From Roseivirga ehrenbergii (GTDB lineage: Bacteria; Bacteroidota; Bacteroidia; Cytophagales; Cyclobacteriaceae): a DNA stretch of 64,000 nucleotides. Below, in pieces: positions 29,601 to 61,453 of the stretch. Every line of letters begins with the position of its first letter. Positions within the stretch are counted from its first letter, which is position 1. The notes under the pieces are model-generated. The model did not search any database. It was not told the DNA's origin and saw only the letters and a program-made list of their open reading frames with translations. The stretch lies in assembly GCF_001593005.1 (NCBI RefSeq), contig NZ_LQZQ01000045.1, forward strand, positions 62,001 to 126,000, in the 5' to 3' direction. Made by a program: the position numbers and the translations under genes.

Positions 29601-32318
29601 GCAAGTTTCAGCTTAGATAAAACGACTTTCGATTGTACGAATGTAGGAGTGAATACAGTAACCCTAACAGTAACCGACAACAACGGTAACGTGAGCAGCA
29701 ATACTGCAACGGTCACTGTTAGAGATATAATTGCTCCTACAATAATCACCCAGAATATTGAAGTGTTCTTGGATGAAAATGGAGCTGCCAGCATTACACC
29801 AAGTAGCGTGAATGACGGTACATTCGATAACTGTACTTTCGATTTGAGTATAGACAAAAACACTTTTGACTGTTTCAATATTGGAGAGAATACGGTGACC
29901 TTAACGGCAACCGATGCCAGTGGTAATAAAACAAGCGCAACAGCGATAGTAACAGTTACTGATGTGATTTTACCAACTATTGTAGGTACTAACATTGAAG
30001 TGTTTGTGAACAGCGAAGGTCAGAGTGCTATTACTGTTCAGGATGTTGATGGAGGAACATTTGACAATTGTGGAATAGCGTCTGTAACGATTGATATCCA
30101 TAGCTTCGATTGCTCAAATTTAGGTGCCAATACGGTAACACTTACAGCCATTGATGTTAATGGAAACGTAAACACCGGTACGGTAACAGTCACCGTGACG
30201 GACATCATTGCACCAATAGTAAACGCTCAAGACTTAATCGTAAATCTTAATGAGAATGGTAGTGCATCGGTATCTGCTGATGACTTACTAATCTACAGTG
30301 AAGCAGACCTAGAGAGAGATACAGAGTGTGAACTGTCAGGGGCGGAAGGTCATGCCATGTGGTTGAGCAAATACCTTCCTTACGACAATGAAGAAGGAAT
30401 GGTAATGGGAATGAGTTCAGATATCGAAGTGGCCAATTTAGCCACTCATTCAAGAGGCTGGAGTTGGTGGAACTGGGGCAACAAAGGTGGTCACGATGAT
30501 GATGACGATGATAAAGGTGGCCGAGATGATGACGATGATGATAACGGAGGCAAGAAGCCTAAAAAGGACAAAGCTAAAGATGCTAGATTCGAGTTTGATG
30601 CAGCCGGAGGCAGCATAGTAAGAAGTCTAGATGGTAAAACGGCAACGGTGACGGGTACCCTTAAAAACATAGAAGACGATACAGACAAATGGACTGTAAG
30701 TCTGATGTTAACCGGGGGAGCTGATTGGGAGACATGGAGCGACAAAGGTGGCAAGTGGAAAGGAAACAAGTATACAGTAAGGAATAATTATAGAGATTGG
30801 ACCTACTATGAGTTGGCCAGTGGAACCTTGACCGGAAGAGGTAGAAACACAGGTGAAATTATACAGCTAGATCATGCTCCAACAGACCATGAATATGGCT
30901 TCCAATTAGGAGATGCGGCCAATGATAAGAATGGCAACTACGGTTTAAGTGGCTGGATTTCTTACACAAATAGAGAAGGTAAGAAGCAACAAGGAGACTT
31001 CAACTTTAATGTGTCAGACTGTGGACTAGTAGCAGTGCCAGCAGGAACAGTTTATACTTCAGACAACTGTGGTATTTCAAGCACAAGTGTTGATATCGAT
31101 AGCTTTAGCTGTACCGACTTAGGAACAAATACAGTAAACGTATCCGTAACCGATCAGAGTGGTAATATCACTACAGTGCCAGTAACAGTAACTGTTCAGG
31201 ATAATATTGCACCAACCGCAGTAGCCTTGGATTACGTCACCGTGAGCCTAGGGGCAGACGGAACTGTAATGGTAGATCCATCGATGTTGGATGGCGGCAG
31301 TTATGATAATACTGACTGTATCACATTCAGCATTGATAGAATGAACTTCGATTGTGATGACATAGGAAGAGGTGATTCATTCTACACTTATGAGGAAGAA
31401 GAGAGTTGTAGAAATCATAAGCATACACATGGTAAAGGCCATAATTATGGAGATGATGACGATGACAATGATCCTGGTAAAGGCAAAGCCTACGGCCATA
31501 AAAAGTCTAAGAAGACGAAGCTGAAAGGCCATAGGGTAATGTTGACTGTGACTGATGCTGCAGGCAACAGCGATCAAGTAGAAACTTACGTTGTTGTTGT
31601 AGATGCCTTAGGTCCTGTGATAGCTGAAGGTCCAGTAATGGTAGTAGTGTATGATGAAACCTACGGAAGAGGCCGAAGAAGTTACACTAAGAAGAACACA
31701 GAGTATGTGAAAGACGATGACATTGAGCCATTGGTGAGCGATAACTGTGAGGTGTATAAAATCGATTTCCCAAGAACTAAATATAGCAGCGATGACGCAG
31801 GCATGAACCAGTTAGAGGTGACGGCCAAAGACAAGAGCGGCAATGTAACGGTGGGTATGGTGAATGTAGAAGTGATTGATATTACAGACTTAGGCAAATA
31901 CGTAGAGATGTGCTATAAAGGCAGGTCTGTCAGAATCAAGAACAGTAGTGTTCAAGATTACCTTAGAAAGGGAGCGAGCTTAGGAAGTTGTGGAGCAAGT
32001 ATGAATACACAAAATCAGAGCTTGGCTTTTGGTGAAACCGAGGAGCGTTTTGTAGCCGAGTTAAACATCGAAAGCTATCCAAACCCAACAACTGGCTTTA
32101 CTACTATAAGTATCAGCAGCAATGTAGAAGGTCCGGCCAAAGTAGGCTTGGTATCCACATCAGGAGTAGAGATCGAGGAAATTTATTCAGGAGAACTACA
32201 AGCGAATGAGAAGTTCGAAGTAGGCTTTGATGGTAGCAACTTACCAAGCGGAGTATACATTGTAAGGTTAGTAACAGCAGGCCAAGTGAAGAACCTCAAA
32301 CTGATGATTAATAAGTAA
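20616..32318 (+). CDS. giant T9SS-secreted multidomain surface protein (LamG and Ig/HYR-like repeats)
   Basis: 3900 residues. An extended N-terminus ends in a hydrophobic export segment (about 28-46, ILSVAIAMLFTLQTYGQ). Residues 50-640 form an unrecognised region, partly helical and possibly toroid-like. Three LamG/concanavalin-like domains follow (about 700-860, 1330-1490 and 2150-2370). They are separated by many 80-residue Ig/HYR-like units with the themes DANGNATITPQ, NTVTLTVTD and SGNxSTATVTV. Residues about 2629-3028 are five near-identical units. Asp-rich stretches occur near 3292-3310 and 3612-3618. The C-terminal 85 residues are a type A sorting domain (SYPNPTTGFTTI, PSGVYIVRL, KLMINK), so export uses the T9SS. 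Likely an adhesin or matrix protein; no enzyme motif was recognised. Confidence 0.92.
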   Translation: MLSFQPKRASGRISRLLLSSAKDSRHFKTILSVAIAMLFTLQTYGQDLSVIPIPVDPNNPSTPFVVHESAPITLKAIIRNATCTSGYDVAWDVNRNGNFDDDYVRRVNRNSIHEADISRTFLVPNVPSEEDMNINVRVRSVCTGEEKFGTFRLRVQDWAPSSDPRSWTEEQIEVLSNIQIQEAMAFVFRTTTWYNGLNNTLNAWANIPQSNHNRFAIELFTKNGRIPAFEPSIAAQYGLSSDNISRNDQIWASDPYANLLGRLLNRMASRTAFQSGIPSIDENNLAGFNPDGSEILGTRISGTTNNRGIFSNEANGADQGRVGITGDALSSISSLLKTVPEFTFRTGTLNGLTLAQVAQEIVDYLTFAQIDGGAGQGGFYYQPLNGNYNHNYPRQDIAMAVLKGLREIEIHGKEVGIIVNNRVKYRYLNNFVTNQHNDGGAQWTSGRPNGSVNYTAVVVGVAHWLGIDQMDLNYGAVPFPGYTNYSKGHFQQAYSRYVGFLNNKWNTPNRKTGIGWSDMFYRSNDYLANNTSQAFPITSDVQSYNLYNVTDGLLESNADFSLNNNQDWQREFQIALIRAQGRALDVNNPLAQLNIFGRVFDNQVYHNPSTAYGAPYNATNMSAIALSVLANPGLDNGSEVDTEPPVVSTQNITAQLDANGNATITPQQVDNGSIDNSGGSLTYALDQTSFDCDDLSTECTSGSLKIDGQNDQIILPNQIALGNSFTLEYWVKNNGADGTYDRITTTSPTYTFETAKNGAGQLSIYGLGRGWISTGVTISSTGYDHIAWVFDGSTVRLYKNGAEEWSGTGFSPDTRLADWTIGNFVDAANFSIDEARLWNSARTAQEINDNASPCTAVDTQDLIFRFSFDEGSGTTATESVSGAAIAMVGGTPVWENDNVQDSPGVSVTLTVTDPSGNTATGTATVTIEDNIAPTVNLNGDAVINLNQNETFTETATAEDNCSATLDIQGTVDTAIAGTYTLTYKAVDGSGNESGEVTRTVNVVEPFTSNITTFTDPTELQNDGLLVAATNVGANAQPVQVNGICFDNTPGTLTNLNNGGGDFCTDCTPGTLFDELFNGILYQPNGSASAITLTGLVPGNKHRLQLLMSNDHNSTGNNTTFLIEGNPVNVSGWIPNTVNATLEFIASGSTMDIGFAANNGSTANRGIISAYVLHDIDQVGTLCNEPPVASSGGDITASIGESATATISFDGSGSSDDNGIASYEWFVDGNSVGTGATLDTELGIGTFSAELIITDSFGITASEQFSITINDATDPIVVTQDITVELDANGNATITPQDVDNGSSDNSGGTLTYTLDQSSFDCNDLSAECISGSLRLNGGNTRVLLPNQIALGNSFTLEYWVKNNGADGVFDRITTTSPTFTFETAKNSGGQLSIYGLGRGWINTGVTISGTEYDHIAWVFDGSTVRLYQNGTEAWSDSGFSADTRLADWAIGNFVDVANASIDEVRLWDSARTVQQINDNASPCGAIDTQGLVFGFSFDEGTGTTATEIVSGDVITIEGGAIWENDNVQDSPGVPVTLTVTDPSGNRATGTATVTIEDNIAPTVNLNGDAVISLNQNETYSETATGEDNCSATLDIQGTVDTATAGTYVLTYKATDGSGNESAEVTRTVTILDVTDPTVITQNITVELDAIGNATITPQDIDNGSSDNSGSVTLSLDITEFNCNNLGVNTVTLTATDASGNSQSGTATVTVQDVTVPNVITQDITVSLDANGNASIVPSQIDNGSDDNCGIQSLLFGVSGDNGGQEVVPVVSGTRNGRELTGISYTYGGETKTLTPANSIGSTLILSTLTAGSGGANRFWDADFNTGMTESKALGVLGDLDLGTVLQDCSDPAGVQHDVMFDTPITPGAGPEIFIVHGSLKQDIKILDTDGNVVKTIDFDINANSSPITIGGSVYDNRFYGFHLRDNVNFRVDQEGTHGSSQNRILALDINASEVPEIGGIRFGGGSCNYIYEILGFQPETASAPQLDFSCDDLGINTVTLQATDGSGNVSTGIANVTVIDEILPTITINGSATVEHDAFTTYTDAGASVVDNCSATLSTIDNVSANVPGSYTVTYTATDASGNETVATRTVIVQDVTDPVAVAQDITVLLDANGNATITPEQINNGSSDDSGNVTLSIDRSDFDCSSLDGEQNNFALRFDGDDEYVSSDNKLGISGNMSRTLEFWMRVDEQDGFNEHIINWGGTSTARSFGFYQSFGAELKFYGFGNPTWDHGTGYIIDQDEWVHVAAVYNGTTVYTYVNGEPTPVPSRDYNLNTADGKLIIAAREDLAGVTFSSLDIDDVRVWNYARSQSQIKESYQREVDGTTPGLILYYDFEDGTGSQTVRDLSNSNNNGRLFNMELNQDWINSGSPIYSGSNPVILTVTDPSGNASTAIANVTVIDEIAPEITAPADINVFATSAAGATVNYTAPVGTDNCSVTTALTAGLEDGATFPIGTTVVTYTATDGSDNATSASFNVTVTGLPPGIVVPADIKVSNDAGECGAVVNYAATEITAIPESTITYDIQPGSFFALGSTTVTATATNAVGTSIDTFTVTVVDSEVPEVITQDVTVDLDVNGNGSITPEQINNGSTDNCSIASYALDIDSFDCSNVGTNTVTLTVTDVNGNSSTNTATVTVRDVIAAEVITQNITIDLDAGGNASITTGMIDNGSNDACGIASFSLDKMTFDCTNVGVNTVTLTVTDNNGNVSSNTVMVTVRDVIAAEVITQDITIDLDAGGNASITTGMIDNGSNDACGIASFSLDKTTFDCTNVGVNTVILTVTDNNGNVSRNTAMVTVRDLIAAEVITKDITIDLDASGNASITTGMIDNGSNDACGIASFSLDKTTFDCTNVGANTVILTVTDNNGNVSSNTATVTVRDLIAAEVITKDITIDLDASGNASITMGMIDNGSNDACGIASFSLDKMTFDCTNVGANTVILTVADNNGNVSSNTATVTVRDLIAAEVITKDITIDLDASGNASITTGMIDNGSNDACGIASFSLDKTTFDCTNVGVNTVTLTVTDNNGNVSSNTATVTVRDIIAPTIITQNIEVFLDENGAASITPSSVNDGTFDNCTFDLSIDKNTFDCFNIGENTVTLTATDASGNKTSATAIVTVTDVILPTIVGTNIEVFVNSEGQSAITVQDVDGGTFDNCGIASVTIDIHSFDCSNLGANTVTLTAIDVNGNVNTGTVTVTVTDIIAPIVNAQDLIVNLNENGSASVSADDLLIYSEADLERDTECELSGAEGHAMWLSKYLPYDNEEGMVMGMSSDIEVANLATHSRGWSWWNWGNKGGHDDDDDDKGGRDDDDDDNGGKKPKKDKAKDARFEFDAAGGSIVRSLDGKTATVTGTLKNIEDDTDKWTVSLMLTGGADWETWSDKGGKWKGNKYTVRNNYRDWTYYELASGTLTGRGRNTGEIIQLDHAPTDHEYGFQLGDAANDKNGNYGLSGWISYTNREGKKQQGDFNFNVSDCGLVAVPAGTVYTSDNCGISSTSVDIDSFSCTDLGTNTVNVSVTDQSGNITTVPVTVTVQDNIAPTAVALDYVTVSLGADGTVMVDPSMLDGGSYDNTDCITFSIDRMNFDCDDIGRGDSFYTYEEEESCRNHKHTHGKGHNYGDDDDDNDPGKGKAYGHKKSKKTKLKGHRVMLTVTDAAGNSDQVETYVVVVDALGPVIAEGPVMVVVYDETYGRGRRSYTKKNTEYVKDDDIEPLVSDNCEVYKIDFPRTKYSSDDAGMNQLEVTAKDKSGNVTVGMVNVEVIDITDLGKYVEMCYKGRSVRIKNSSVQDYLRKGASLGSCGASMNTQNQSLAFGETEERFVAELNIESYPNPTTGFTTISISSNVEGPAKVGLVSTSGVEIEEIYSGELQANEKFEVGFDGSNLPSGVYIVRLVTAGQVKNLKLMINK
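28501..29700 (+). repeat. five tandem 240-bp repeats inside the giant gene
   Basis: The segment GTAACTGTNAGAGA and what follows recurs at exactly 240-base intervals (near 28520, 28760, 29000, 29240 and 29480). The next unit at 29720 is clearly diverged. Each copy encodes one 80-residue Ig-like unit (IAAEVITxDITIDLDA, IDNGSNDACGIASFSLDK). The copies differ at only a few bases, so they arose by recent duplication or are homogenised. Copy number is likely to vary between strains and to be difficult to assemble from short reads. Confidence 0.93.
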
Positions 32319-49919: not shown

Positions 49920-50336
49920 CTAAGGCTTGGTAGTATCGGCTTTGTCGTCAAGGTTCATAACAAACCTCTTAAAGAAGAGACTCTTCTCCCCAAAGTTGAT
50001 CAACAGGCCAACTTCATAACGATAAGCCCTAAGGTAGTTTAAGATCTGAGCCCAATGAACCTCTTCAATTTTAGTTGTTGCTTTCAATTCAACTAAAACC
50101 TTTCCTTCAACTATAAAATCTGCTCTTCTGGTACCTATTGGTTCTGGGCATTCTCTATAAAAGATGTACTGCTCTTGTTCCCTTTGGAAATTAAGGTTGG
50201 CCTGATTGAATTCATAAGCCAATGCTCGCTGATAAATCACCTCTTGAAATCCATTTCCTAAAAAAGAATGGACTCTCATTGCTGCACCAATTATTTGATG
50301 GGTGAGGTCTTTGAATTGATAATTTTCACTAGGCAT
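49920..50336 (-). CDS. GxxExxY-family protein
   Basis: 138 residues. The family motif is GNGFQEVIYQRAL (G-x-x-E-x-x-Y) near the N-terminus, with TRRADFIVEGKVLVELKA in the middle, which has the Asp and Glu-x-Lys of the PD-(D/E)xK nuclease fold. It ends with a strand-helix segment (AYRYEVGLLINFGEKSLFFKRFV). The family is common near repeats and mobile regions; the function is not established. Its neighbours are repeat units on both sides and the type I R-M operon downstream. Confidence 0.9.
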   Translation of the reverse strand: MPSENYQFKDLTHQIIGAAMRVHSFLGNGFQEVIYQRALAYEFNQANLNFQREQEQYIFYRECPEPIGTRRADFIVEGKVLVELKATTKIEEVHWAQILNYLRAYRYEVGLLINFGEKSLFFKRFVMNLDDKADTTKP

Positions 50337-50544: not shown

Positions 50545-53538
50545 TCACCCCTGCATCGGCCAATCGCTGTACTGCCCTTCGGCTTGTTCGATTACTTCTT
50601 GGAGCAATTGGTCTAGGGCTGAGAAAGGGACTTTTCCTTTGAGCTCTTTTTTGACGGCTAGGCGAATGGCGGCTCGGGCGTCTTCTTTTTTGGCCCAATC
50701 GAGTTGAAGGTTTTTCTTGACTGAGGCGACTACTTTGTGCACCAAATCTTGGATAGGTCCTGCTTCGTTGAGCAGCTTTTGGTTGGCTTCTAGCAAATCG
50801 TAAAAAGCCAATTCATCTTCCGTGAGGCCGAGTTCTTTGGTTCTTTTGTCATCATTTTGAAACTCGGTCGCAATGTCTAGCAAGTGCTTAATGGCCGCGA
50901 TGGAATCCAAACTGTTTTTGTGGTATTTGCCCAACACCTTATCCAGTTCATCTTTCAGGCTGGTCATTCTGCGGATGTTCTTCGGCATTCTTACCTTAAG
51001 CTCATCGTTGATGATGCGCCTGAGCAGTTCAATTTTAATGTTTTCGCCTCCTTTGTCTTTCACCATGGCCTGAAAAGCATCATCGATAATCGAAATGTCT
51101 ATTCTGTCCAAGTCATACATTTCTGCCAAGTCCACTATTTTGTGCGACTCAATGGATTGACTGATCAGGTCTTTGATGCGATCGTTCTTTTTGCGTTGTG
51201 CGCCAGGAGGGAACTTGATTTTTCGGATGATGTCGCGGATTTTCTGAATCATGCCCACTTCTTCCTGAATAGGCCAAATGCGTGGGTCTGAGTTGGTCAT
51301 AGCGACTAACTCTGACAGTTTCCTTTCTTCTAGCAGGAACTTGTCGGTGATCGGGTCGGATTGCAGCAAGTCGTTCACCAAGTTATTCGACCAAGTGAGT
51401 TTTTCCGAAGCGGACAATGCATTAATGGCTTCCAGATCAAAGCCACCCATTAAGGCTTTTACTTCTTCGAATTGGGCTAGGCACATTTCCACGGCTACGT
51501 CCATATCGATGGTGGGTTTACCGCCACCTCCGCTGCCTGTGTATTTCTTGGTGGCTTCGGCCAAAAAGCCCGAAATACCGATGAAATCTACCACCAAACC
51601 ATTGGGCTTGTCGTGGAAAACCCGATTGACACGTGCAATGGCCTGCATCAGGTTGTGGCCTTTCATTATTTTATCTACGTACATGGTGTGGGCGCAAGGC
51701 GCATCGAAACCCGTGAGCCACATGTCACGCACAATCACCATTTTTAGTGGATCATCTGCGGTTTTGAAACGCTTTTTGATCGCTTCCATATTGTCTTTGG
51801 TGCGCACATGCGGATTCCATTCCTTAGGATCTTTGCCAATATTGCTCGTCATGATGACGGCTATTTCGGGGCAACCTTCCAAGGCAGTAAGCGCATCGTA
51901 CATTTTCACGCAGTTTTTTCTGCTCATGCACACAATCATAGCTTTGCCGTCTAGCGAGGCAATGCGCGCATTAAAATGGGTGAGAATATCGGTGGCTACG
52001 CGCTTTACACGGTCTTCTGCACCAGCCGCATCTTCTATCGCTGCCCAAACCGCATGCGTGCTTTCATCTTCGTCTTCCGCTATCGCTTCCAGTTCTTTGG
52101 TGTATTCTGCCTTAATATTGAGCGGCACCATTTTGGGTTCATAATAAATAGGTACGGTGGCACCATCTTCCACCGCCTGTTTGATGTCATAGGTGTGAAT
52201 GGTTTCGCCAAATACCAATTCGGTATCTGCGCCTTTGCTGTCTACGGGCGTTCCTGTAAAGCCAATAAAGGAAGCGTTGGGCATGGCAATCCTGATGTTT
52301 TGGGCAAAGCCGCCATCTTTAAACCCGTATTGGGTGCGATGGGCTTCATCGGCCATCACGATCAGGTTATAGCGTTCTGAAAGTATAGGATGCGCCAATT
52401 CTTTGCCGCCTTCTAACTCTTTGAGCCTGAATTTCTCGATGGTGGTGAAAATCACGCCTCCGCCATCGGTGCTGAGCAATGCCCTCAGTTCATCTGTAGT
52501 TTCGGCATGTTGCACTTCGCCCACCAAATCTTTGGCCAGCACGAAATTCTCATAAAGCTGCTGATCTAAATCGGAGCGGTCTACTTGAATGACGATGGTG
52601 GGGTTTTTCATTTGCGGCAGCGAACGCAAAATGCCCGTGAGTATGGCCATTGAAATGCTTTTGCCCGAACCTTGGGTATGCCAAATTACGCCCAAACGTC
52701 CATCGCCATGGGGTTTGATGTTGGCGACAGCACTTTCTACGGCTTTATTGATGCCCCAAAACTGATGGTATTTCGCGCCTTTCTTGATGATTTTACCATT
52801 GTGGTCTTCATGGAAAATAAAGTTCTTGAGGTAATTGAGCAGGGTGGCTTTTGGAAACAAACCATTGAGCAGGGTTTCTAACTGAAACTTCTTTCTGTTT
52901 TCTACATCATCTCCCTGCATGCTCTTCCAAGGGGCGAACCATTCCATAGACGAGTTGTACATGCCGTGCAGGGTTTCCATGCCATCGGAAACAACGGTGA
53001 TGGCGTTGTAATCGAAGAGCTCGGGAATATCGAGGATATAATGCCCAATTTGGCCGAGGGCATTGTCTACGCCTACTTCTGGGTCGAACATATTTTTGAA
53101 TTCGAAGACGATGAGCGGCAGGCCATTGATGTAAATCAGCAGGTCGGTTCTGCGGTTGTTTTTACCTATAAACCTGACTTCATCGGCACAAATAAAGCTG
53201 TTGGCTGCTGGGGAATCGTAATTGATAGGGTAGAGGTGCTTGGCCAGTTCCTTGCCGTCCGCAGTTTTCCAGCTGATGTCTATGCCCTGCGACATTTTGC
53301 GGTGAAACTCTTGGTTGCGGTGGTCAAGGTCCATGCTGGCCTGCTGGGTGAAAACGGCCATGGCCTCATGAATGGCGGTGATGGGTACATCGGGGTAAGT
53401 TTTTTGCAGAAAGCTTTGCAGCTCGTCTTCCAGCACCACTTTTTTTAAATCACGGCTGAGGCTATTGCCCATACGGTAGGTATAGCCCAAGTTTTCTAGC
53501 CATTCAATGGCGGCCTGTTGTACGGTGCTTTCTTTCAT
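50545..53538 (-). CDS. hsdR: type I restriction endonuclease subunit R
   Basis: 997 residues, full length. The N-terminal PD-(D/E)xK nuclease has Asp132 and Glu146-Phe-Lys148 (TDLLIYINGLPLIVFEFKN). The SF2 translocase has Walker A WHTQGSGKS (residues 286-294) and Walker B MADEAH (395-400). Motif III is FTGTPVD, and later motifs include IARVNRVFHDKPNG. The C-terminal helical domain binds the methyltransferase. It cuts DNA after ATP-driven translocation, but only with HsdM and HsdS. It is the last gene of the operon, four bases after hsdS. Confidence 0.96.
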   Translation of the reverse strand: MKESTVQQAAIEWLENLGYTYRMGNSLSRDLKKVVLEDELQSFLQKTYPDVPITAIHEAMAVFTQQASMDLDHRNQEFHRKMSQGIDISWKTADGKELAKHLYPINYDSPAANSFICADEVRFIGKNNRRTDLLIYINGLPLIVFEFKNMFDPEVGVDNALGQIGHYILDIPELFDYNAITVVSDGMETLHGMYNSSMEWFAPWKSMQGDDVENRKKFQLETLLNGLFPKATLLNYLKNFIFHEDHNGKIIKKGAKYHQFWGINKAVESAVANIKPHGDGRLGVIWHTQGSGKSISMAILTGILRSLPQMKNPTIVIQVDRSDLDQQLYENFVLAKDLVGEVQHAETTDELRALLSTDGGGVIFTTIEKFRLKELEGGKELAHPILSERYNLIVMADEAHRTQYGFKDGGFAQNIRIAMPNASFIGFTGTPVDSKGADTELVFGETIHTYDIKQAVEDGATVPIYYEPKMVPLNIKAEYTKELEAIAEDEDESTHAVWAAIEDAAGAEDRVKRVATDILTHFNARIASLDGKAMIVCMSRKNCVKMYDALTALEGCPEIAVIMTSNIGKDPKEWNPHVRTKDNMEAIKKRFKTADDPLKMVIVRDMWLTGFDAPCAHTMYVDKIMKGHNLMQAIARVNRVFHDKPNGLVVDFIGISGFLAEATKKYTGSGGGGKPTIDMDVAVEMCLAQFEEVKALMGGFDLEAINALSASEKLTWSNNLVNDLLQSDPITDKFLLEERKLSELVAMTNSDPRIWPIQEEVGMIQKIRDIIRKIKFPPGAQRKKNDRIKDLISQSIESHKIVDLAEMYDLDRIDISIIDDAFQAMVKDKGGENIKIELLRRIINDELKVRMPKNIRRMTSLKDELDKVLGKYHKNSLDSIAAIKHLLDIATEFQNDDKRTKELGLTEDELAFYDLLEANQKLLNEAGPIQDLVHKVVASVKKNLQLDWAKKEDARAAIRLAVKKELKGKVPFSALDQLLQEVIEQAEGQYSDWPMQG

Positions 53539-53542
53539 TTAC

Positions 53543-54793
53543 TTACATTATGGATGCCAGACTTTGTTCTGCCTCTTTTACCCGCACTTCTCCGCTAATC
53601 AATTTGGGAAGTAAGGTGTCGCGGAGAGCCATTAGGGATTCATTTTCTAAAACATTTTGCTTGAGTTGGTCAAATAAAGGGTCGATCTCTCTTTTCAAAT
53701 TTTCTATAATAGAAGTCGGTGGAACTACAACATTGGTTGATTTAAAAGTTGAGGTAGTAATTGTATCGAAAACGGAACCGTAAGCCATCCTTTTAAACTG
53801 TTCTATTAATTCGGAAAACATTAAATAAACCAAACCTTGTGAATACTCACCTTTTGCAAACAGTCCATAACATGATTGATTCATTGCCATTTCCTTAGCG
53901 ATCATGCCATACTTACCTACAGAACCTCTAGCAACTAATATAACCGTATCCTCAGGTAATATCTTCGTTGCGCTTTTTGACACCCCTAATTCTGTAATCT
54001 TCTTTTCAGTATCATTAATGTACAAGCCTCCATTTCCAATATCCTTTGCGGATACCCAGCATATGTCACCATTCCAATATTCATCCATAGTAGTTTTTGG
54101 AGTCCCCCCACTTAACAAATCTACTATCTCCAAAATGCCCTTCACTTCCCAACCTTCAGGAATTAAGCCCAATTCAGAGTCTACAAACTCACCGTCTTTA
54201 AAAGGCCCAAAATCTACAAACCAATGTTTGTACAAGGTCATGGCCATTTCTTCCAAGGTTTTGTTCATTTGAAGGTTCAGCTCTATTTTATCGTCTAAGG
54301 AAGAGAGAATGGACGCGATGGCTTGTTGTTCGGGGAGAGGGGGGAATGGAATATCTAAAGCTTCAAGAACGGGGATCCTTAAATTCGATACAGTTGAACC
54401 AGTCCCTTCATATATCATTATTTGATTCTGTACTTCTTTCGCTTGAATCGCATATAATAAAAAAGGGTTATCCACTTTTGAAGATGGTCTTATCAAAACC
54501 ATTCTTTGCCCAAGACAACATTTTAATCCTTCAGGCAACATACAAACTTCACCCATAGGGGCTTCTCTTGTTATAACAAGGTCACCTCCCTTTGGAATAG
54601 CTCTCCGAGTTCGTTGTTTATAATGTTCTTCATCCGTATAAGACTCCTTTTCAAAATTGAGCTTTCCGTTTCTTATGTTGTTGCTTCTTAGAACTGTCAC
54701 TCCACTATCCTTCCATTTAGGAGTTGAGTGAGGACAGTCTACAATCAAATCGCAAATTTCTTTGAGCTTATGTGTTTTCCAGTTGTTGGGCAT
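53543..54793 (-). CDS. hsdS: type I R-M specificity subunit S
   Basis: 416 residues with the usual two target recognition domains. TRD1 (about 1-150) begins WKTHKLKEICDLIVDCPHSTPK and ends with the helix PFPPLPEQQAIASILSSLDDKIELNLQMNKTLEEMA. TRD2 (about 205-370) begins GLIPEGWEVKGILEIVDLLSGGTPKT. The C-terminal helix ends ESLMALRDTLLPKLISGEVRV. The ATG shares its A with the TAA of the KAP gene (TAATG), so translation is coupled to it. The target sequence cannot be read from the protein. The TRD regions look more AT-rich than hsdR. Confidence 0.95.
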   Translation of the reverse strand: MPNNWKTHKLKEICDLIVDCPHSTPKWKDSGVTVLRSNNIRNGKLNFEKESYTDEEHYKQRTRRAIPKGGDLVITREAPMGEVCMLPEGLKCCLGQRMVLIRPSSKVDNPFLLYAIQAKEVQNQIMIYEGTGSTVSNLRIPVLEALDIPFPPLPEQQAIASILSSLDDKIELNLQMNKTLEEMAMTLYKHWFVDFGPFKDGEFVDSELGLIPEGWEVKGILEIVDLLSGGTPKTTMDEYWNGDICWVSAKDIGNGGLYINDTEKKITELGVSKSATKILPEDTVILVARGSVGKYGMIAKEMAMNQSCYGLFAKGEYSQGLVYLMFSELIEQFKRMAYGSVFDTITTSTFKSTNVVVPPTSIIENLKREIDPLFDQLKQNVLENESLMALRDTLLPKLISGEVRVKEAEQSLASIM

Positions 54794-57700
54794 TAGGCTA
54801 GTTCTTTCTTACTGTATCCTACAAACATTTCAATATCAGTTACCTCCAATATACCACCGCGCTTATTCTCATTATCATGTACTAGTCTTTGCCAATGTTG
54901 ATTTCCTTTCAGTTCCTTAATTTCTTCAGGTAGGTTACTATCAGTATATATTTTAAAATCTTTCTCTACATGTTCTACATAAAGTGGATAGACATTTTGA
55001 AGAACTAGCCAACGAAAAAGCTTATCAGAATCAAATGTTTTTCTTTCTGCAATTAGGGTATCTCTATATACATTATACTGATTGGCTAATCTTTTAATGC
55101 TTCTAGGATTTGATTCAATTAAATCGTGATGGCTCTGGAGTATATGTTTAATATCTTCTTGATCTTCATTCAACATTTCTAGGGCATAGTCAGTAACCTC
55201 TGATTCTGTGAGCCCTAGTTCATTACCAATTTGCTCATACTGGTCAGTTTTGGCGTAATCTTCTTTGCTGTATTTGTTTTTAAATTCTTGCTTTAGCTCT
55301 CTATCTTCTTCATCTGTCCTTTTTAGTTTTGTATTGTCCTCCTCTTCTACATTTGAATTTCCTTCTGGGAACAATATAAAATTCCAATAATCCTTTTTAG
55401 TTTTTTCTGAAACATGAGGTAATCTTACTGAAAGTTGAAAGGCTTTTTCAAGGAACAAATACCCTAATTTTTGAGCAGGCTCTTTAATCACTGGCGTGAA
55501 TTGTTCATAGTGGCATTCAAAACAGGTGCTTATCCAATTTTTATCGCCTGCTACAATGTAGAGTACTTTTCTATCCTTATATAGTGTTTGGATTCCTTCC
55601 AATAACTTCACATTAAATTTGGCATCGCATCTGTCAATGTCATCGATAAAAATCACCAACCTATAGCCAAAGACCTCTAAATTATTGACCATTGATTCAA
55701 AGTGCTTTTTGACCTTCATCATTGGGTCGGCAACCTCTTCCATGAAAGTTTTGGCTGTTTCAGGAGACCTTAAAAAGAAAGGCCGAATTAGAAATTGAGA
55801 AAAGGAATAAAAAAGGCCAACTAAAGCAGCAATTGCCCCAACAATTTTACCAAAATTCAATAAGTCTTCACCCTCACTTGTTATTGCTGCATCACTCGGA
55901 TTTTCTTTAAAGAAATCTATAACAAGGGGTAGAGACTTGTAACTAAAAAATAGAAGCACCAATAATATTCCTGTTACTAACAATCTACTTTTTAACTTCA
56001 GGTTAAAGAGCCGTCTGTATTGCTCAAGAATAAAAAAACTGGCTCTATTAATTCCGAGTTGTTTGATCGATTGTTTATAGACTTGATCTAAAAAAGTCCA
56101 CCATGGTGGAGAAATGTGCTGATTTTGCCAAGCGTTAAATTCGACAACTACCCATTTGTTATTATCACTTGGTAGGTTTTTTTTAATGAGATTAAAAAAT
56201 GTAGACTTACCATCACCCCAAGCGCCTTGCAAGTGAATCATAAATGCATGCCTGCTTCTTTTTTCAGTGATTATCTCCTTATGTTTTTTTCTAATCCAAG
56301 AAGTAGTTTTATTTTCCACCCACTTCTTTGTTATCCAATTGAGCGACACAATACACCATCTTTTGTGAAAAGGCTTTCTTAATGGGGATGAAAATATTTG
56401 CTTGTTCAAAAGTCGGGTAATCGACTTGGCTACGGGCTCTCTATTTAATCGATCCGTATCTTCTACTTGATCAAGATGGAAGGGGATGTTGTCAATAGTG
56501 GATTCAACTGTTGGCTGACTAGCAGTTGGTTTGGTTTCTGTTTGAAATAAGGAAGGATTTCCAAGTTCTGTAATATTTATGATTTCATTGAAGACCTCGA
56601 ATGGTATGATGCTAAGATCTCTCATTTTAACATTTGGAGATAGCCACTCATCAATAACTTTATTTTTGTTAAGCTCATTAGTTATTATTCTATTACTGAA
56701 CCTGTAAATGGGTGTGGCCTCTATTTCCGAGCCTCTGATGCGTACAACTTCAAAAAGACCAACCAACATGTTATCAAAAAGCGGGCTATAGGCAACTATC
56801 AGTATTTCACCTTTTTTTGGTTTTAAATTATCAGAATCTTCATTAGGGAAAATAAAGTTGTTTTGTCCTTTAAGATTATCCTCAGCCCAATTATACCTCA
56901 TATCACTTATCCACCAAAAACTAGAGCCAGAGGCTTTATTTATCTTAATTTTTGTTTGAATTTCGAGCAGATTTATATTTGTGAATATTCTAGAATCCTT
57001 TAATTTTTCAATAATAGAGGACAAGTTTGGATAAGAAGCTAAGACCCTTCCCAATATTTCATTAATATAGTTTTCAGTTATTTTCTGAAATGTGCTTCTA
57101 TACTGTGAACCAAACTCTAAATCAATCTTTTCAGGAAAACTGAACCAGTTTACTTTTAGATTATGACCATCTCTTGGGTTGTCAAGCACTACACCTATTG
57201 CCCTGAAAGTAAGCATGCCTTGAGATTTGCCTTTTACCCAAGTGGTTTTAGCAAAGAGAATGTCACCAACGTTTGCTGAGTTTACAGCATTCGTCTGTTT
57301 GTCTGCATGACCATTTTCCCAAATGCTGTTTTCGATAAATCTCGGTAATTGATCGACATTATCCCAGTCATGGCCAGCTACATAGAATGCTCTTTGGAGT
57401 TTAGTGAATTGGTTTGTTCGAAGATCTTCAATCTCGAATTCCTGTTCTGAAGACCTGTGTTCATTCCAATAAGCAATTTGAAACTCTATTGAATTTTTTG
57501 AATTTTCATCGATTGATTCCGGTAATGAAAAAACGAACTCATAAGGTTGAAATGAAGAATTTATGGTTTTGAGTGCCGAAAGCGTAATTGTAAAACTTGT
57601 TAAGAAGTCCAACCCACCTGCTCCAGTACCCATTAAAGGCATCCAAATGGATTTTTCCTTTATAGCTTTTTGATAGTTACTTAATGCTGAGTTTAAGTTT

Positions 57701-57960
57701 TTTTTTAGATTTTTCTGAGTCGAATCGCTGCCAATGGTTACTATAAAAATGATAATATTGTGCTCTGATTTTTGTAAGATGGCATGCCCGTGTGTAAGGT
57801 ATTTTTCTGTTGGAAGGTCTTTTTTTGTAAAGCCCCGTGCTTCTAATACGCTAATATTTAAATCACCAGGAGTTCCATATGAGTCTATAGAAACAAAAGC
57901 TACTTCCGCTTTACTAGATGGATATGCAACTTGCGAAGAGATTAGAAAAGGAGCTGCCAT
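54793..57960 (-). CDS. KAP-family membrane NTPase with macro-like N-terminus, inside the type I R-M operon
   Basis: 1055 residues. Residues about 15-145 look like a macro/ADP-ribose-binding-type domain (IWMPLMGTGAGGLDFL at 105-120 matches the second phosphate-binding loop). Residues about 205-275 (GDILFAKTTWVKGKSQG) and 345-410 (FWWISDMRYNWAEDN, PKKGEILIVAYSP) are possibly PUA/EVE-like. A KAP domain starts at about 501 (DTDRLNREPVAKSITRLLN). Walker A is GAWGDGKST (579-587) and Walker B is LVIFIDDIDRCD (768-779); two membrane helices lie between them (660-683, 705-727). KAP proteins include PifA, which blocks phage T7. It starts one base after the hsdM stop and couples to hsdS by TAATG. Confidence 0.88.
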   Translation of the reverse strand: MAAPFLISSQVAYPSSKAEVAFVSIDSYGTPGDLNISVLEARGFTKKDLPTEKYLTHGHAILQKSEHNIIIFIVTIGSDSTQKNLKKNLNSALSNYQKAIKEKSIWMPLMGTGAGGLDFLTSFTITLSALKTINSSFQPYEFVFSLPESIDENSKNSIEFQIAYWNEHRSSEQEFEIEDLRTNQFTKLQRAFYVAGHDWDNVDQLPRFIENSIWENGHADKQTNAVNSANVGDILFAKTTWVKGKSQGMLTFRAIGVVLDNPRDGHNLKVNWFSFPEKIDLEFGSQYRSTFQKITENYINEILGRVLASYPNLSSIIEKLKDSRIFTNINLLEIQTKIKINKASGSSFWWISDMRYNWAEDNLKGQNNFIFPNEDSDNLKPKKGEILIVAYSPLFDNMLVGLFEVVRIRGSEIEATPIYRFSNRIITNELNKNKVIDEWLSPNVKMRDLSIIPFEVFNEIINITELGNPSLFQTETKPTASQPTVESTIDNIPFHLDQVEDTDRLNREPVAKSITRLLNKQIFSSPLRKPFHKRWCIVSLNWITKKWVENKTTSWIRKKHKEIITEKRSRHAFMIHLQGAWGDGKSTFFNLIKKNLPSDNNKWVVVEFNAWQNQHISPPWWTFLDQVYKQSIKQLGINRASFFILEQYRRLFNLKLKSRLLVTGILLVLLFFSYKSLPLVIDFFKENPSDAAITSEGEDLLNFGKIVGAIAALVGLFYSFSQFLIRPFFLRSPETAKTFMEEVADPMMKVKKHFESMVNNLEVFGYRLVIFIDDIDRCDAKFNVKLLEGIQTLYKDRKVLYIVAGDKNWISTCFECHYEQFTPVIKEPAQKLGYLFLEKAFQLSVRLPHVSEKTKKDYWNFILFPEGNSNVEEEDNTKLKRTDEEDRELKQEFKNKYSKEDYAKTDQYEQIGNELGLTESEVTDYALEMLNEDQEDIKHILQSHHDLIESNPRSIKRLANQYNVYRDTLIAERKTFDSDKLFRWLVLQNVYPLYVEHVEKDFKIYTDSNLPEEIKELKGNQHWQRLVHDNENKRGGILEVTDIEMFVGYSKKELA

Positions 57961-57961
57961 T

Positions 57962-59653
57962 TTATATTCTTTCTAGGTTTTCTTTAATCCTTTCCTGCAA
58001 CTCATTGCTTTTCTCGAACTGCGCCATGAGTTGGCTTTTTAAGCCGTCCATTTTTTCTTCAAAAGGAATTCCATCGTCTTCTTCGGCTTCTGTGCCTACA
58101 TAAATGCCAGGGGTCAGTTTGTAGTCTTGCTTTTGTACTTCGGCTAGGGTGGCGGCTTTGCAGAAGCCGGGTTGGTCTTCATAACACAGCCCACTACCGG
58201 CAACCCTTTCAAGAGGGGGCTCCTCATCAGATGATGTTTGTGAATTGCTTTGAGATTGCTTCGTCATTCCTGCGTCATTCCTAGATTGCTTCGCTTCGCT
58301 CGCAATGACGGATCTCCAAGCGTGGTAAGTTTCGCCAATGGTTTTGATGTCATCGTCAGAGAAAACGCGCAGCTTGCGGCTGGCCATGGTGCCCATTTTA
58401 GAGGCATCTATAAATAGAATTTCATTGCTGCGTTCGCGGTGGAGGCCGTCACGGCCATCTCGGTTTTTGCTGAGAATAAACAAGCAGGCAGGAATGCCCG
58501 TGGTTAAAAAGAGTTTGTCGGGTAGGCGCACAATGGCGTCTACCATGCTATTGTCCACCATATGTTGGCGCACATTCTTTTCTCCTTTGGTATTAGAGGT
58601 CATTGCGCCATTGGCCATTACAATACCGGCTGTGCCCGTATCGCTCAGGTGGTGCCAGAAGGTTTGCATCCACATGTAGTTGGCGCTGCCATCGGTGGTG
58701 TATTCTTCCTTAGGGCCAAATAAGCGGGGGTCGCCATCTGGTAAATCTTCAGGATGCCAATTGCTCACATTAAAGGGAGGGTTGGCAATGATAAAGTCTG
58801 CTTTTAGCGTAGGGAATTTATCGTCTAGTAAGGAGTTGCCCAGCTTAATATCAAAAGACAGCTCGCGCAACATCAGGTTCATTAGGCAAAGCCTTAAGGT
58901 CTGAGCCGTCATTTCTTGTCCGTAAATGGAAATGTCGCTTTTATTGCCGCCATGCTCTTTTACAAACTTTAAGCTCTGCACAAACATGCCACCGCTGCCA
59001 CAAGCCGGGTCGAAGATGCGGCCTTTATAAGGCTCCAGAATTTCTACCAATAGGCGCACAATGCTGCCTGGTGTAAAGAATTGTCCGGCACCGGAGCCTT
59101 CGGCCATGGCAAAGCGGCCAATGTAGTATTCGTAAATACGGCCTAGAATATCGCTTTCTGGGTTTTCCTTTTCAGAAAACTTAGGGTGGGAGAGTAAGTT
59201 GATAATCCCGCCCGTTTGCTTGGCAGATAACTCACTTTTCACAAAAATACGCGGCAGTAGGTTGGTAAGCTGAGGATTAAAGGCCGTGAGCAGTTCTTGG
59301 ATGACATCGAAGGCATCATCTACAATTACTTTAATATCGTCTTGCTCGACATTGTCTTTTAGGTATTGCCACGAAGCGGTATTCGGTATTTTAAAAGTAT
59401 TGCGAGAACGGTACTCATCGGCATCGTCCAATACATAGCTAATCTCTTCCTTGTCGATGGTGTAATACTCTGATTTCGGGTCGTTAAGTAATTCTTTGAG
59501 TTCTTCGTGCACCATTTCGTAGCGCTCGCTCATGTGCTTTAAAAACACCAGCGGAAGAATGTAATTCTTATAGTTGTTCTCAGATACTGCGCCCCTTAAC
59601 TCGTTCGCTGCGTCCCAGAGTTCTTTTTCAAAATCTATATCTGCTTTTGCCAT
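57962..59653 (-). CDS. hsdM: type I R-M methyltransferase subunit M, with in-frame repeat insertion
   Basis: 563 residues. An N-terminal helical domain (GAVSENNYKNYILPLVFLKHMSERYE) leads to the SAM-binding motif I FDPACGSGGM (residues 214-223) and motif IV NPPF (291-294), the adenine-N6 signature. Motifs of the C-terminal part (FLTTGIPACLFILSKN) follow. Around residues 448-490 an extra low-complexity segment (VIASEAKQSRND, then KQSQSNSQTSSDEEPP) separates ETYHAWR from YEDQPGFCKAATL, which are normally closer. The DNA there is a known type of palindromic repeat. It is the first gene of the operon. Modified or lost activity is possible but unproven. Confidence 0.94.
   Translation of the reverse strand: MAKADIDFEKELWDAANELRGAVSENNYKNYILPLVFLKHMSERYEMVHEELKELLNDPKSEYYTIDKEEISYVLDDADEYRSRNTFKIPNTASWQYLKDNVEQDDIKVIVDDAFDVIQELLTAFNPQLTNLLPRIFVKSELSAKQTGGIINLLSHPKFSEKENPESDILGRIYEYYIGRFAMAEGSGAGQFFTPGSIVRLLVEILEPYKGRIFDPACGSGGMFVQSLKFVKEHGGNKSDISIYGQEMTAQTLRLCLMNLMLRELSFDIKLGNSLLDDKFPTLKADFIIANPPFNVSNWHPEDLPDGDPRLFGPKEEYTTDGSANYMWMQTFWHHLSDTGTAGIVMANGAMTSNTKGEKNVRQHMVDNSMVDAIVRLPDKLFLTTGIPACLFILSKNRDGRDGLHRERSNEILFIDASKMGTMASRKLRVFSDDDIKTIGETYHAWRSVIASEAKQSRNDAGMTKQSQSNSQTSSDEEPPLERVAGSGLCYEDQPGFCKAATLAEVQKQDYKLTPGIYVGTEAEEDDGIPFEEKMDGLKSQLMAQFEKSNELQERIKENLERI
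58253..58310. repeat. interspersed palindromic repeat inside hsdM
   Basis: The full copy (58283-58310) reads AGATTGCTTCGCTTCGCTCG then CAATGACG, the well-known interspersed element often translated as SEAKQS or similar. A partial copy (58253-58270, AGATTGCTTCGTCATTCC) stands upstream of it. The insertion keeps the hsdM frame open. It encodes most of the VIASEAKQSRND...KQSQS stretch. Confidence 0.85.
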
Positions 59654-60073: not shown

Positions 60074-61453
60074 TTACTTTCCAATACAGAACTTGCTAAA
60101 AATATTCGCTAATAAATCATCGGTGGTGATTTCTCCGGTGATCTCACCGAGGTAATGGAGGCTTTGGCGAATGTCCATAGCGACAAAATCATTAGTCACT
60201 TGGTTATCAATACCTTCTATAACCGCAGTTAAAGCATTTTTAGTTTGTAGTAGGGAGTCGTAATGACGAATGTTGGTGACTACGGTATCGCCTTTTTTGA
60301 ACTTATCGAGGTTGACGAGTTCGAGGATACGTTCTTTGAGTTTTTCCACTTGCTCAGGGTCTTTGGCCGAAAGAAACAGCATATCGGAGTGTTGACCTTG
60401 AAGCGTTTCAATAAAGGCTGGATCGGCTTTGTCGAGTTTATTGGCGAGCTTTAAAAAGGGCACGCCAGCGTTTTCAAGTAGGTTAATTTCTTTGTTCACT
60501 TCCACAATAGATGTATCTGCCAAATCGAAAAGATAGATGATCAGCGAGGCGGTTTTCATTTTCGCTTGGGTACGCTCCACACCCATGGCTTCAATCACAT
60601 CGGTAGTCTCTCTCAAACCGGCCGTGTCGATAAAGCGGAAAGCGATGCCACCAATAATGATTTCGTCTTCGATAAAGTCGCGGGTAGTACCAGCAATGTC
60701 AGAGACTATGGCTTTTTCCTCATTCAGCAAGGCATTCAGCAGGGTAGACTTGCCTGCATTGGGTTTGCCCGCAATTACGGTCGGTACTCCGTTTTTGATC
60801 ACATTGCCCAAGTCAAAACTTTGGATCAGCGCATTGATCACTTTCAGAAGTCGGTTGACCAAATTCGTTAAATCTTCACGGCTGGCGAATTCTACATCTT
60901 CTTCGCCAAAATCGAGTTCAAGCTCAATCATGGAAGCAAAGTGAATCAGCTCTTCGCGCAAGCGTTTAATTTCATCAGAAAAACCACCACGCATCTGGTT
61001 AAGCGCGGTTTGGTGGGCTGCTTCCGAATCTGCATTGATTAAGTCGGCTACGGCTTCGGCTTGTGCCAAATCGAATTGGCCGTGCATAAAGGCGCGCTTG
61101 GTAAACTCACCCGGTTTGGCAGGTCGTGCCCCTTTACGGATTAACAACTGAATAATCTGGCGTATAATATAACTCGATCCGTGGCATGAAATCTCAATAA
61201 CGTTCTCTTTGGTAAAGGATTTTGGCGCAATGAAAAGCGAGATAAGCACTTCGTCTAGAATCTTATCACCATCGCGGATTGTGCCAAAATGAATCGTATG
61301 TGATTCCTGTTTCGTAAGATCTTTCCCCTTAAAAACCGTATTGGTAATGCTTATGGCTTCTTTTCCAGATAAACGGATTACGCCAATGGCACCCACGCCT
61401 TGTGGTGTAGCCAATGCAATAATGGTGTCTTCGTTTTGAGCTAGTGCGCGCAT
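60074..61453 (-). CDS. mnmE: tRNA modification GTPase MnmE
   Basis: 459 residues, complete. The N-terminal tetrahydrofolate-binding domain starts MRALAQNEDTIIALATPQGVGAIGVIRLSG. The inserted G domain has G1 GKPNAGKST (residues 229-237), the following DIAGTTRD and DTAGLRET, and NKLD (G4). The C-terminus is the conserved FCIGK with the Cys needed for activity. With MnmG it makes the 5-carboxymethylaminomethyl group on wobble U34 of tRNAs. It is a chromosomal housekeeping gene and marks the right border of the defence island. Confidence 0.97.
   Translation of the reverse strand: MRALAQNEDTIIALATPQGVGAIGVIRLSGKEAISITNTVFKGKDLTKQESHTIHFGTIRDGDKILDEVLISLFIAPKSFTKENVIEISCHGSSYIIRQIIQLLIRKGARPAKPGEFTKRAFMHGQFDLAQAEAVADLINADSEAAHQTALNQMRGGFSDEIKRLREELIHFASMIELELDFGEEDVEFASREDLTNLVNRLLKVINALIQSFDLGNVIKNGVPTVIAGKPNAGKSTLLNALLNEEKAIVSDIAGTTRDFIEDEIIIGGIAFRFIDTAGLRETTDVIEAMGVERTQAKMKTASLIIYLFDLADTSIVEVNKEINLLENAGVPFLKLANKLDKADPAFIETLQGQHSDMLFLSAKDPEQVEKLKERILELVNLDKFKKGDTVVTNIRHYDSLLQTKNALTAVIEGIDNQVTNDFVAMDIRQSLHYLGEITGEITTDDLLANIFSKFCIGK

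Follow-up and report, generated by a model that had tools for sequence, protein, structure and literature searches.

Defence genes inside type I restriction-modification (R-M) operons are already known, as are KAP NTPase candidates in the PADLOC library such as PDC-S20. The closest described systems each resemble the locus considered here in part. TgvAB, which lies within the type I R-M locus of V. cholerae VPI-2, defends against Tevenvirinae whose genomes are hypermodified, and HEC genes are embedded in Hma clusters (PMC11411939). Purified QatA, a KAP NTPase, binds DNA and was suggested to be heptameric or octameric (PMC13279940). Tmn, another KAP NTPase, has two transmembrane domains; phage escaped it through a point mutation in their DNA-modification gene nmad5, and the precise mechanism of Tmn was termed unexplored (PMC11846954). 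The macro domains of ThsA bind ADPR or an adenine dinucleotide and assemble into higher-order oligomers (PMC11204291), and a survey of EVE/DCD domains described stand-alone EVE and PIN-GNAT-EVE genes near type I R-M systems (PMC7641849). Here we analysed a 64,000-nucleotide stretch of Roseivirga ehrenbergii DNA (the window), in which a type I R-M operon carries, between hsdM and hsdS, a gene encoding a predicted macro domain, a supported and a probable EVE unit, and a KAP NTPase domain. This architecture within an R-M operon was not found in the open-access literature searched, where no paper treated KAP, EVE domain, macro domain and restriction-modification jointly. We tentatively read the gene as an exchangeable anti-phage cargo, a sensor-gated membrane KAP ATPase in the hsdM-hsdS slot that would complement restriction blinded by modified DNA, and hold this reading at somewhat below an even chance.

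The operon lies on the minus strand, with HsdM, HsdS and HsdR all open frames and collinear. hsdM (57962..59653; 563 amino acids) matched Pfam N6_Mtase at 3.2e-92 and HsdM_N at 5e-20, hsdS (53543..54793; 416 amino acids) matched Methylase_S at 9.2e-43, and hsdR (50545..53538; 997 amino acids) matched TIGR00348 hsdR at 1.5e-163. The embedded Macro-EVE-EVE-KAP gene (54793..57960) is an open reading frame (ORF) of 1055 amino acids with an ATG start. An initial annotation, made from the letters of the DNA, had described these four genes as closely packed; the packing was read directly, since the gap between the hsdM stop and the KAP gene start is 1 base and the KAP stop and hsdS start form TAATG with one base in common. 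The G+C content was 34.8% in the KAP gene, 38.6% in hsdS, 39.6% in the window, 46.5% in hsdM and 47.8% in hsdR.

The KAP P-loop NTPase domain occupies residues 561-967 (55060..56280, minus strand, like all segments of this gene) and matched PF07693 (KAP_NTPase) at E 7.8e-36, with a score of 124.3 bits against a cut-off of 20. By sequence, it contains a Walker A motif, GAWGDGKST (residues 579-587; 56200..56226), and a Walker B region (residues 768-779; 55624..55659) with IDDIDRC from residue 772. Two hydrophobic, putatively transmembrane segments, called from Kyte-Doolittle 19-residue windows above 1.6, cover residues 654-684 (55909..56001) and 699-725 (55786..55866), and both fall between the Walker A motif and IDDIDRC, as the initial annotation had proposed for a KAP NTPase with two helices between its Walker motifs. 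In PADLOC, the KAP part matched QatA (3e-20), PDC-S20 (1.3e-16, 59 bits) and PifA (1.3e-12). The QatA match scored 79 bits against an equivalog cut-off of 600, and the neighbours are hsd genes, not qatBCD. No row named Tmn was among the PADLOC matches up to E 0.1, a library in which a Tmn model was unconfirmed, and the whole 1055-residue protein had no sequence homologue in the PDB at E up to 1.

The N-terminal residues 1-150 (57511..57960) were assigned to the macro superfamily by AlphaFold2 and Foldseek. The model of residues 1-480, built from a two-row alignment, had block-mean predicted local distance difference test (pLDDT) values of 63-81 over residues 21-150, a moderate confidence, and mostly below 55 after residue 160. 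Foldseek returned 155 PDB matches for this model at E up to 0.001, the best being 6r0r (E 2.7e-7). Rows 1-16 of the 50 listed were alphavirus entries with a macro domain, and the TM-score on target for the VEEV macro 3gqo was 0.73. Other rows among these 50 included TARG1, macroH2A, PARP14, AF1521 and DarG; nine were titled otherwise (a Thermus hypothetical protein, six designed serine hydrolases and two SPX-protein entries). By sequence profile, the Pfam Macro gathering score was missed (E 0.019, 15.3 bits against 22), as was the ThsA_Macro cut-off (E 0.088, 13 bits against 25); GTGAGG, residues 111-116, lies inside the segment with these sub-threshold matches. The macro profile also matched solved structures weakly (best E 0.11), 14 of its 15 rows going to a Thermus protein and to macro entries of coronavirus nsp3. 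G29, G32, L34, N35, G111, T112, G113 and G115 were invariant across five aligned members (alignment A10), from which G908 is absent; it differs at 115. The predicted structure thus backs the macro-like N-terminus of the initial annotation. With the Pfam Macro score under the cut-off, residues 1-150 are a divergent member, by fold only, of a superfamily whose domains read ADP-ribose-type molecules in other proteins.

Two EVE units follow. EVE1 (residues 186-330; 56971..57405), identified by profile, AlphaFold2 and Foldseek, belongs to a family shared with the N-terminal domain of McrB, and putative EVE2 (residues 339-472; 56545..56946) was proposed from hhalign and a low-confidence model. A model of residues 176-480 was built from an alignment of the window protein, the L009 relative and 14 McrB rows from viral contigs, and its block-mean pLDDT reached 89-96 over residues 196-315 of EVE1. 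Foldseek against the PDB gave three rows for EVE1 at E up to 0.001, namely 2p5d (1.6e-5, TM-score 0.53 on target) and two PH1033 entries (best 3.4e-4). We take 2p5d and PH1033 to be EVE-family proteins, a name absent from their titles. Weaker rows were YTH domains (4u8t at 5.3e-3, others weaker) and THYN1 with 5-methylcytosine DNA (1.9e-2), and lower rows were unrelated. In IMG/VR, 39 stretches carried the EVE1 pattern and 15 were confirmed. The 14 with one intact frame were McrB-like ORFs by eye (profile E 7e-36 to 2e-28), and the remaining one, L071, whose match is split over two frames, was excluded from alignment A9 and the EVE1 profile set, leaving 14 of the 15 viral rows. L012 encodes an EVE1-type protein (AAA_5) beside McrC (McrBC 6.7e-71), and L024 has an annotated mcrC with an EVE1-type protein. 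Pfam EVE (PF01878) was not among the seven families listed up to E 1 for the 1055-residue protein, and the EVE1 profile found five rows only among solved structures by sequence, all designed or unrelated proteins. The modelled structure supports an EVE/YTH (PUA-like) modified-base-reader fold for residues 196-315. A second EVE unit at residues 339-472 is probable only, because its model is poor (pLDDT about 50 or less).

We assessed the slot between hsdM and hsdS in related loci. Relatives of hsdM were collected from 295 family genomes (8 matches, E 1e-150), 390 order genomes (10 matches, E 1e-180) and 72,556 plasmid records (1 match, E 1e-150), the genome samples being draws from larger groups. 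This gave 17 hsdM loci in total, with the window (G000) and G146 found in both genome sets. Four loci (G067, G177, G119 and G554) are cut off by a contig edge, leaving 13 readable to the next hsd gene; some gene names in the other loci come from BLAST to window or G010 proteins or from reading by eye. All 13 readable loci had one or more extra genes after hsdM. At least one cargo gene had a PADLOC match in 10 of the 13 (in the window, the QatA match given above) and none did in 3, a model match not being proof of membership.

An EVE-KAP gene, of two KAP types, stood between hsdM and hsdS in four of the 13 readable loci (the window, G010, pSD15 and G146). It is the sole cargo in the window, and one or two further genes precede hsdS in the other three: a HigB-like gene and a helix-turn-helix (HTH)-metallopeptidase gene in G010 and pSD15, and an OLD-like ATPase-TOPRIM gene in G146. 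In pSD15 the hsdM and KAP frames are broken and an IS21 element interrupts hsdS. G010 and pSD15 were found through both the KAP protein and hsdM; G146 was found through hsdM alone and is therefore the one independent confirmation of an EVE-KAP gene in the slot. Conservation of the hsdM-KAP-hsdS order in other genomes, named as a check in the initial annotation, held in part: the EVE-KAP gene recurs in the slot, and the exact order was seen only in the window.

The remaining cargos were diverse. The HTH-metallopeptidase matched PADLOC PD-Lambda-2_B in G010 (1.7e-33), pSD15 (8e-37) and G251 (3.9e-35). G109, whose hsdM has an internal stop, carried a KilA-N protein matching PDC-S22 (2.8e-133); G607 a DRT2 reverse transcriptase on the opposite strand (4.6e-132); G588 HEC-01A and HEC-01B (5.1e-238 and 6e-106); G504 a kinase and its partner, PDC-M71A/B; and G380 PDC-S01. 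The cargo of G570 is a 114-residue protein with no PADLOC match at 0.001, and the contig-edge locus G554 had a PDC-S06 match (1.7e-99). The PDC names of PADLOC reportedly derive from guilt-by-embedding work. Known and candidate defence matches therefore occupy the same hsdM-hsdS slot, which speaks for the initial interpretation. In two others of the 13 loci a STAND-type gene lies directly between hsdM and hsdR, Mrr-NACHT in G590 (L052 3218-6223) and NACHT in G548 (L056 3409-6888), where hsdM is apparently shortened and hsdR apparently split. No hsdS was seen in either locus, as if the cargo took the place of the specificity subunit, and these NACHT cargos had no PADLOC match at E 1e-5.

Junctions were compared in 11 loci, a table that omits G590 and G548. 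The junction into hsdS was CCTAATGCC, with an identical one-base overlap, in five loci whose last cargo genes are of three kinds (the KAP gene, the metallopeptidase in three, and the OLD-like gene). The G+C content was below that of the adjacent hsdM in 18 of 20 cargo genes, a set outside which the minus-strand reverse transcriptase of G607 stands, and hsdS was below hsdM in 11 of 11 loci.

Relatives were also found outside hsd operons. The macro family was searched with alignment A2 (4 of 295 family genomes, E 0.001), with A10 (E 1e-4; 2 of 395 phylum genomes, one of them the source of the window) and by tblastn (1 of 72,556 plasmid records). The L009 and G072 match being one contig, six distinct proteins were obtained: those of the window, G010, L009/G072, G082, G908 and Rhizobium P0005. 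KAP_NTPase was fused in 6/6, and two of the six genes (window and G010) occupy the hsdM-hsdS slot. The sequence retrieved around the remaining four showed no complete hsd operon; at a distance of 5 kb from the G082 gene stands one of hsdR type (HSDR_N, EcoEI_R_C). The EVE region of G908 is degenerate, without the WENG motif. The Macro-(Clp_N)-KAP gene on a plasmid of Rhizobium sp. CIAT894 (L022 9956-12874) lies among annotated transport and metabolism genes; the macro-KAP pair therefore reaches beyond the window's phylum. On L010, a window-type KAP gene (32% identical), its N-terminus cut by the contig end, lies near a gene for a TIR-endonuclease fusion (L010 2-1735 and 3390-4565; TIR_2 4e-21, ThsB_TIR 7e-5, Endonuclease_NS 1.4e-35).

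The two halves of the protein showed different closest relatives. Macro identity was 56% between the window and G010 and 41% between the window and L009, whereas KAP identity was 28% and 47%, respectively; pSD15, with its broken KAP frame, was excluded from the KAP and EVE1 identity tables. The KAP tree grouped the window with L009, a gene without hsd neighbours, at 100/100 and rejected a window-G010 grouping (approximately unbiased (AU) test, p 6.7e-10), and the macro tree contained a conflicting split, {L009, G082, G908}, at 87/92. Because of the KAP tree and the identities, the macro tree alone being insufficient, sensor and effector have likely recombined between relatives, although this is not proven by the sequence comparison. 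Since the parts appear to have recombined, the protein is most readily viewed as an effector, its KAP half, joined to an exchangeable sensor cassette, its N-terminal half.

Domain content, operon position, recurrence and company were observed; the defence role, ligand and membrane action we infer as follows. An exchangeable anti-phage cargo gene would occupy the hsdM-hsdS slot. Where incoming DNA (or RNA) carries modified bases and so lies beyond the reach of type I restriction, the EVE part of the product may dock on these bases, and/or its macro part may bind an ADP-ribose-type nucleotide or adduct produced in infection. Either event would allow assembly of the ATPase at the membrane by way of the two helices inserted in it, and the assembled ATPase would halt infection, probably through membrane damage. 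Labour would then be divided, with the R-M enzyme acting on unmodified phage DNA and the KAP protein on phages escaping by modification.

Several results weigh against this proposal. EVE1 did not follow the macro pattern, with identities of 40% to G010, 42% to L009 and 45% to G146, and exchange of the sensor cassette as one intact unit is therefore unsupported. The macro tree was moderately resolved, so that grouping the window with L009 was not rejected (AU p 0.075), and grouping it with G010 formed no supported clade, that constraint costing 0.55 log units (p 0.26). In hhalign comparisons with Pfam-EVE members, EVE1 reached a probability of 1.4%. EVE2 was weak, at a probability of 49% and E 1.7e-4 against 20 members from near relatives, the comparison values being 0.1% for the macro part and 0.1-0.6% for five column-shuffled versions derived from EVE1, not EVE2. 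Of the two PUA/EVE-like segments in the initial annotation, the first accordingly stands on its model and the 2p5d match, and the second is weakly indicated. Neither sensor is obligatory: no EVE was seen in Rhizobium P0005, which has macro, KAP and a Clp_N match, and no macro was seen in pSD15 and G146, which have EVE. The N-terminal part was unmatched in 50,697 phage records (E 0.01), and its 167 pattern hits in IMG/VR included none confirmed by alignment. Among the described KAP systems, defence against some phages did not require QatA or QatD (PMC13279940), and deletion of nmad5 gave no escape from Tmn (PMC11846954). A phage origin of the gene was also considered and rejected, the N-terminal part being unmatched as above and the KAP part giving 11 pattern hits with 0 confirmed.

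A stronger form of the proposal would make the protein a coincidence detector, in which the macro domain reads an ADP-ribose-type mark, the EVE part reads modified nucleobases, and both together open the membrane KAP ATPase. This would be a hitherto undescribed class of non-nucleolytic, modification-gated immunity whose sensor cassettes and KAP effectors are freely recombined and swapped in and out of a dedicated slot. We regard this form as doubtful.

Alternatively, the macro domain could sense a soluble nucleotide of the ADP-ribose type as the trigger, in a Thoeris-like manner, the EVE parts merely tethering the protein to nucleic acid. The fusion of macro to KAP in 6/6 proteins, with EVE unseen in one and degenerate in another, is in line with this idea, as are the weak ThsA_Macro similarity, the TIR-endonuclease gene near the KAP relative on L010 and the published action of ThsA macro domains (PMC11204291). 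However, no signal-making enzyme was found among the operon's four proteins (neighbours elsewhere were mostly read by eye), no macro was seen in pSD15 and G146, and the organism's own genome had no TIR_2 match, which mildly disfavours such a trigger, ThsB_TIR and other TIR families having been outside that search. We consider it unlikely overall.

In the initial annotation, R-M inhibition had been offered as one trigger of the candidate defence gene. This would correspond to a PrrC-type backup, in which the R-M complex holds the KAP protein inactive and phage inhibition of restriction releases it. In the four EVE-KAP loci the KAP gene begins 1, 1, 2 and 11 bases past the end of hsdM, and in the window only it overlaps hsdS as well, which would suit such a complex. 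However, the relatives that share its sensor or effector on L009, L013, L022 and L093 have no hsd genes beside them within the stretches read, and an R-M-inhibition trigger is therefore disfavoured. The slot also takes many unrelated defence genes, so co-expression fits, rather than specific contact. These results make a PrrC-type backup improbable. The earlier interpretation thus survives in its KAP, macro and first EVE/PUA-like domains, in the recurrence of the KAP gene in the slot and in the defence company there, and loses this trigger.

The same relatives without adjacent hsd genes speak against a further idea, that the protein is no executioner and instead serves as a membrane tether or motor that raises restriction by carrying either invading DNA or the R-M enzyme to the site of entry. 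Its KAP hydrophobic segments, nucleic-acid reader fold and common operon are compatible with that role, but the other slot cargos lack such logic, and we give it a slender chance. It is very improbable that the macro domain is an eraser stripping ADP-ribose from DNA or protein to shield the host's restriction enzyme or the host itself: the structural matches do include the macro domains of DarG and TARG1, yet no ADP-ribosyltransferase family was found among the operon's four proteins, and the 6/6 KAP fusion suits a receptor better.

Several features of the surroundings were also recorded. The operon sits directly past the 3' end of mnmE (window 60074-61453), and the hsd locus of G548 too adjoins the mnmE 3' end (L056 10161-11546; MnmE_helical, TrmE_N). 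An island attachment site at this end was rejected, the sequence being single copy in the window and the genome with no flanking repeat. A short gene of the PDDEXK_3 nuclease family lies directly beyond hsdR (window 49920-50336; 2.4e-35), and genes of this family lie ahead of hsdM in G607 (L050 955-1332; 1e-38) and, in G554, at the junction of hsdM with the cargo, separating the two (L054 3537-3923; 2.8e-37). The C-terminal part of HsdM differs in length among relatives, with an insert (563 amino acids in the window against 703 in G251; L036 11536-13647); the insert (window 58139-58306) was rejected as a repeat, having one scored match only in its own genome. On the plus strand, an ORF of 3900 codons spans window positions 20616-32318.

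The locus bears on the question of how KAP NTPases such as PifA, QatA and Tmn sense phages and what they do. The KAP cores here are joined to recognisable reader domains, making the trigger directly testable. The hsdM-hsdS slot also offers a simple guilt-by-position route to more defence genes.

PDC-S20, PifA, QatA and Tmn share with this protein the KAP NTPase core, whereas the matches to PDC-S20, PifA and QatA span the KAP part only. Thoeris ThsA (TM-macro) likewise joins a macro domain to membrane segments, with a published model of nucleotide-induced clustering (PMC11204291). Here, in contrast, a KAP ATPase that also carries EVE domains is the effector, ThsA_Macro stays under its cut-off and the own genome has no TIR_2 match; a ThsA_Macro search of 194 order genomes was uninformative, the control being silent as well. 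With McrBC the likeness lies in the sensor, the McrB specificity domain and EVE1 being one family, and the difference in the effector, which is McrB with McrC there; here the NTPase is KAP and the neighbours are hsdM and hsdS. The EVE/DCD survey differs in its domain partners, words beginning KAP or macro occurring 0 times in its main text (PMC7641849). TgvAB is a GmrSD-like two-protein system with no membrane ATPase, and macro, EVE and KAP are unnamed in the covered text; its likeness is a modification-dependent defence inside a type I R-M operon, proposed by its authors to complement R-M (PMC11411939).

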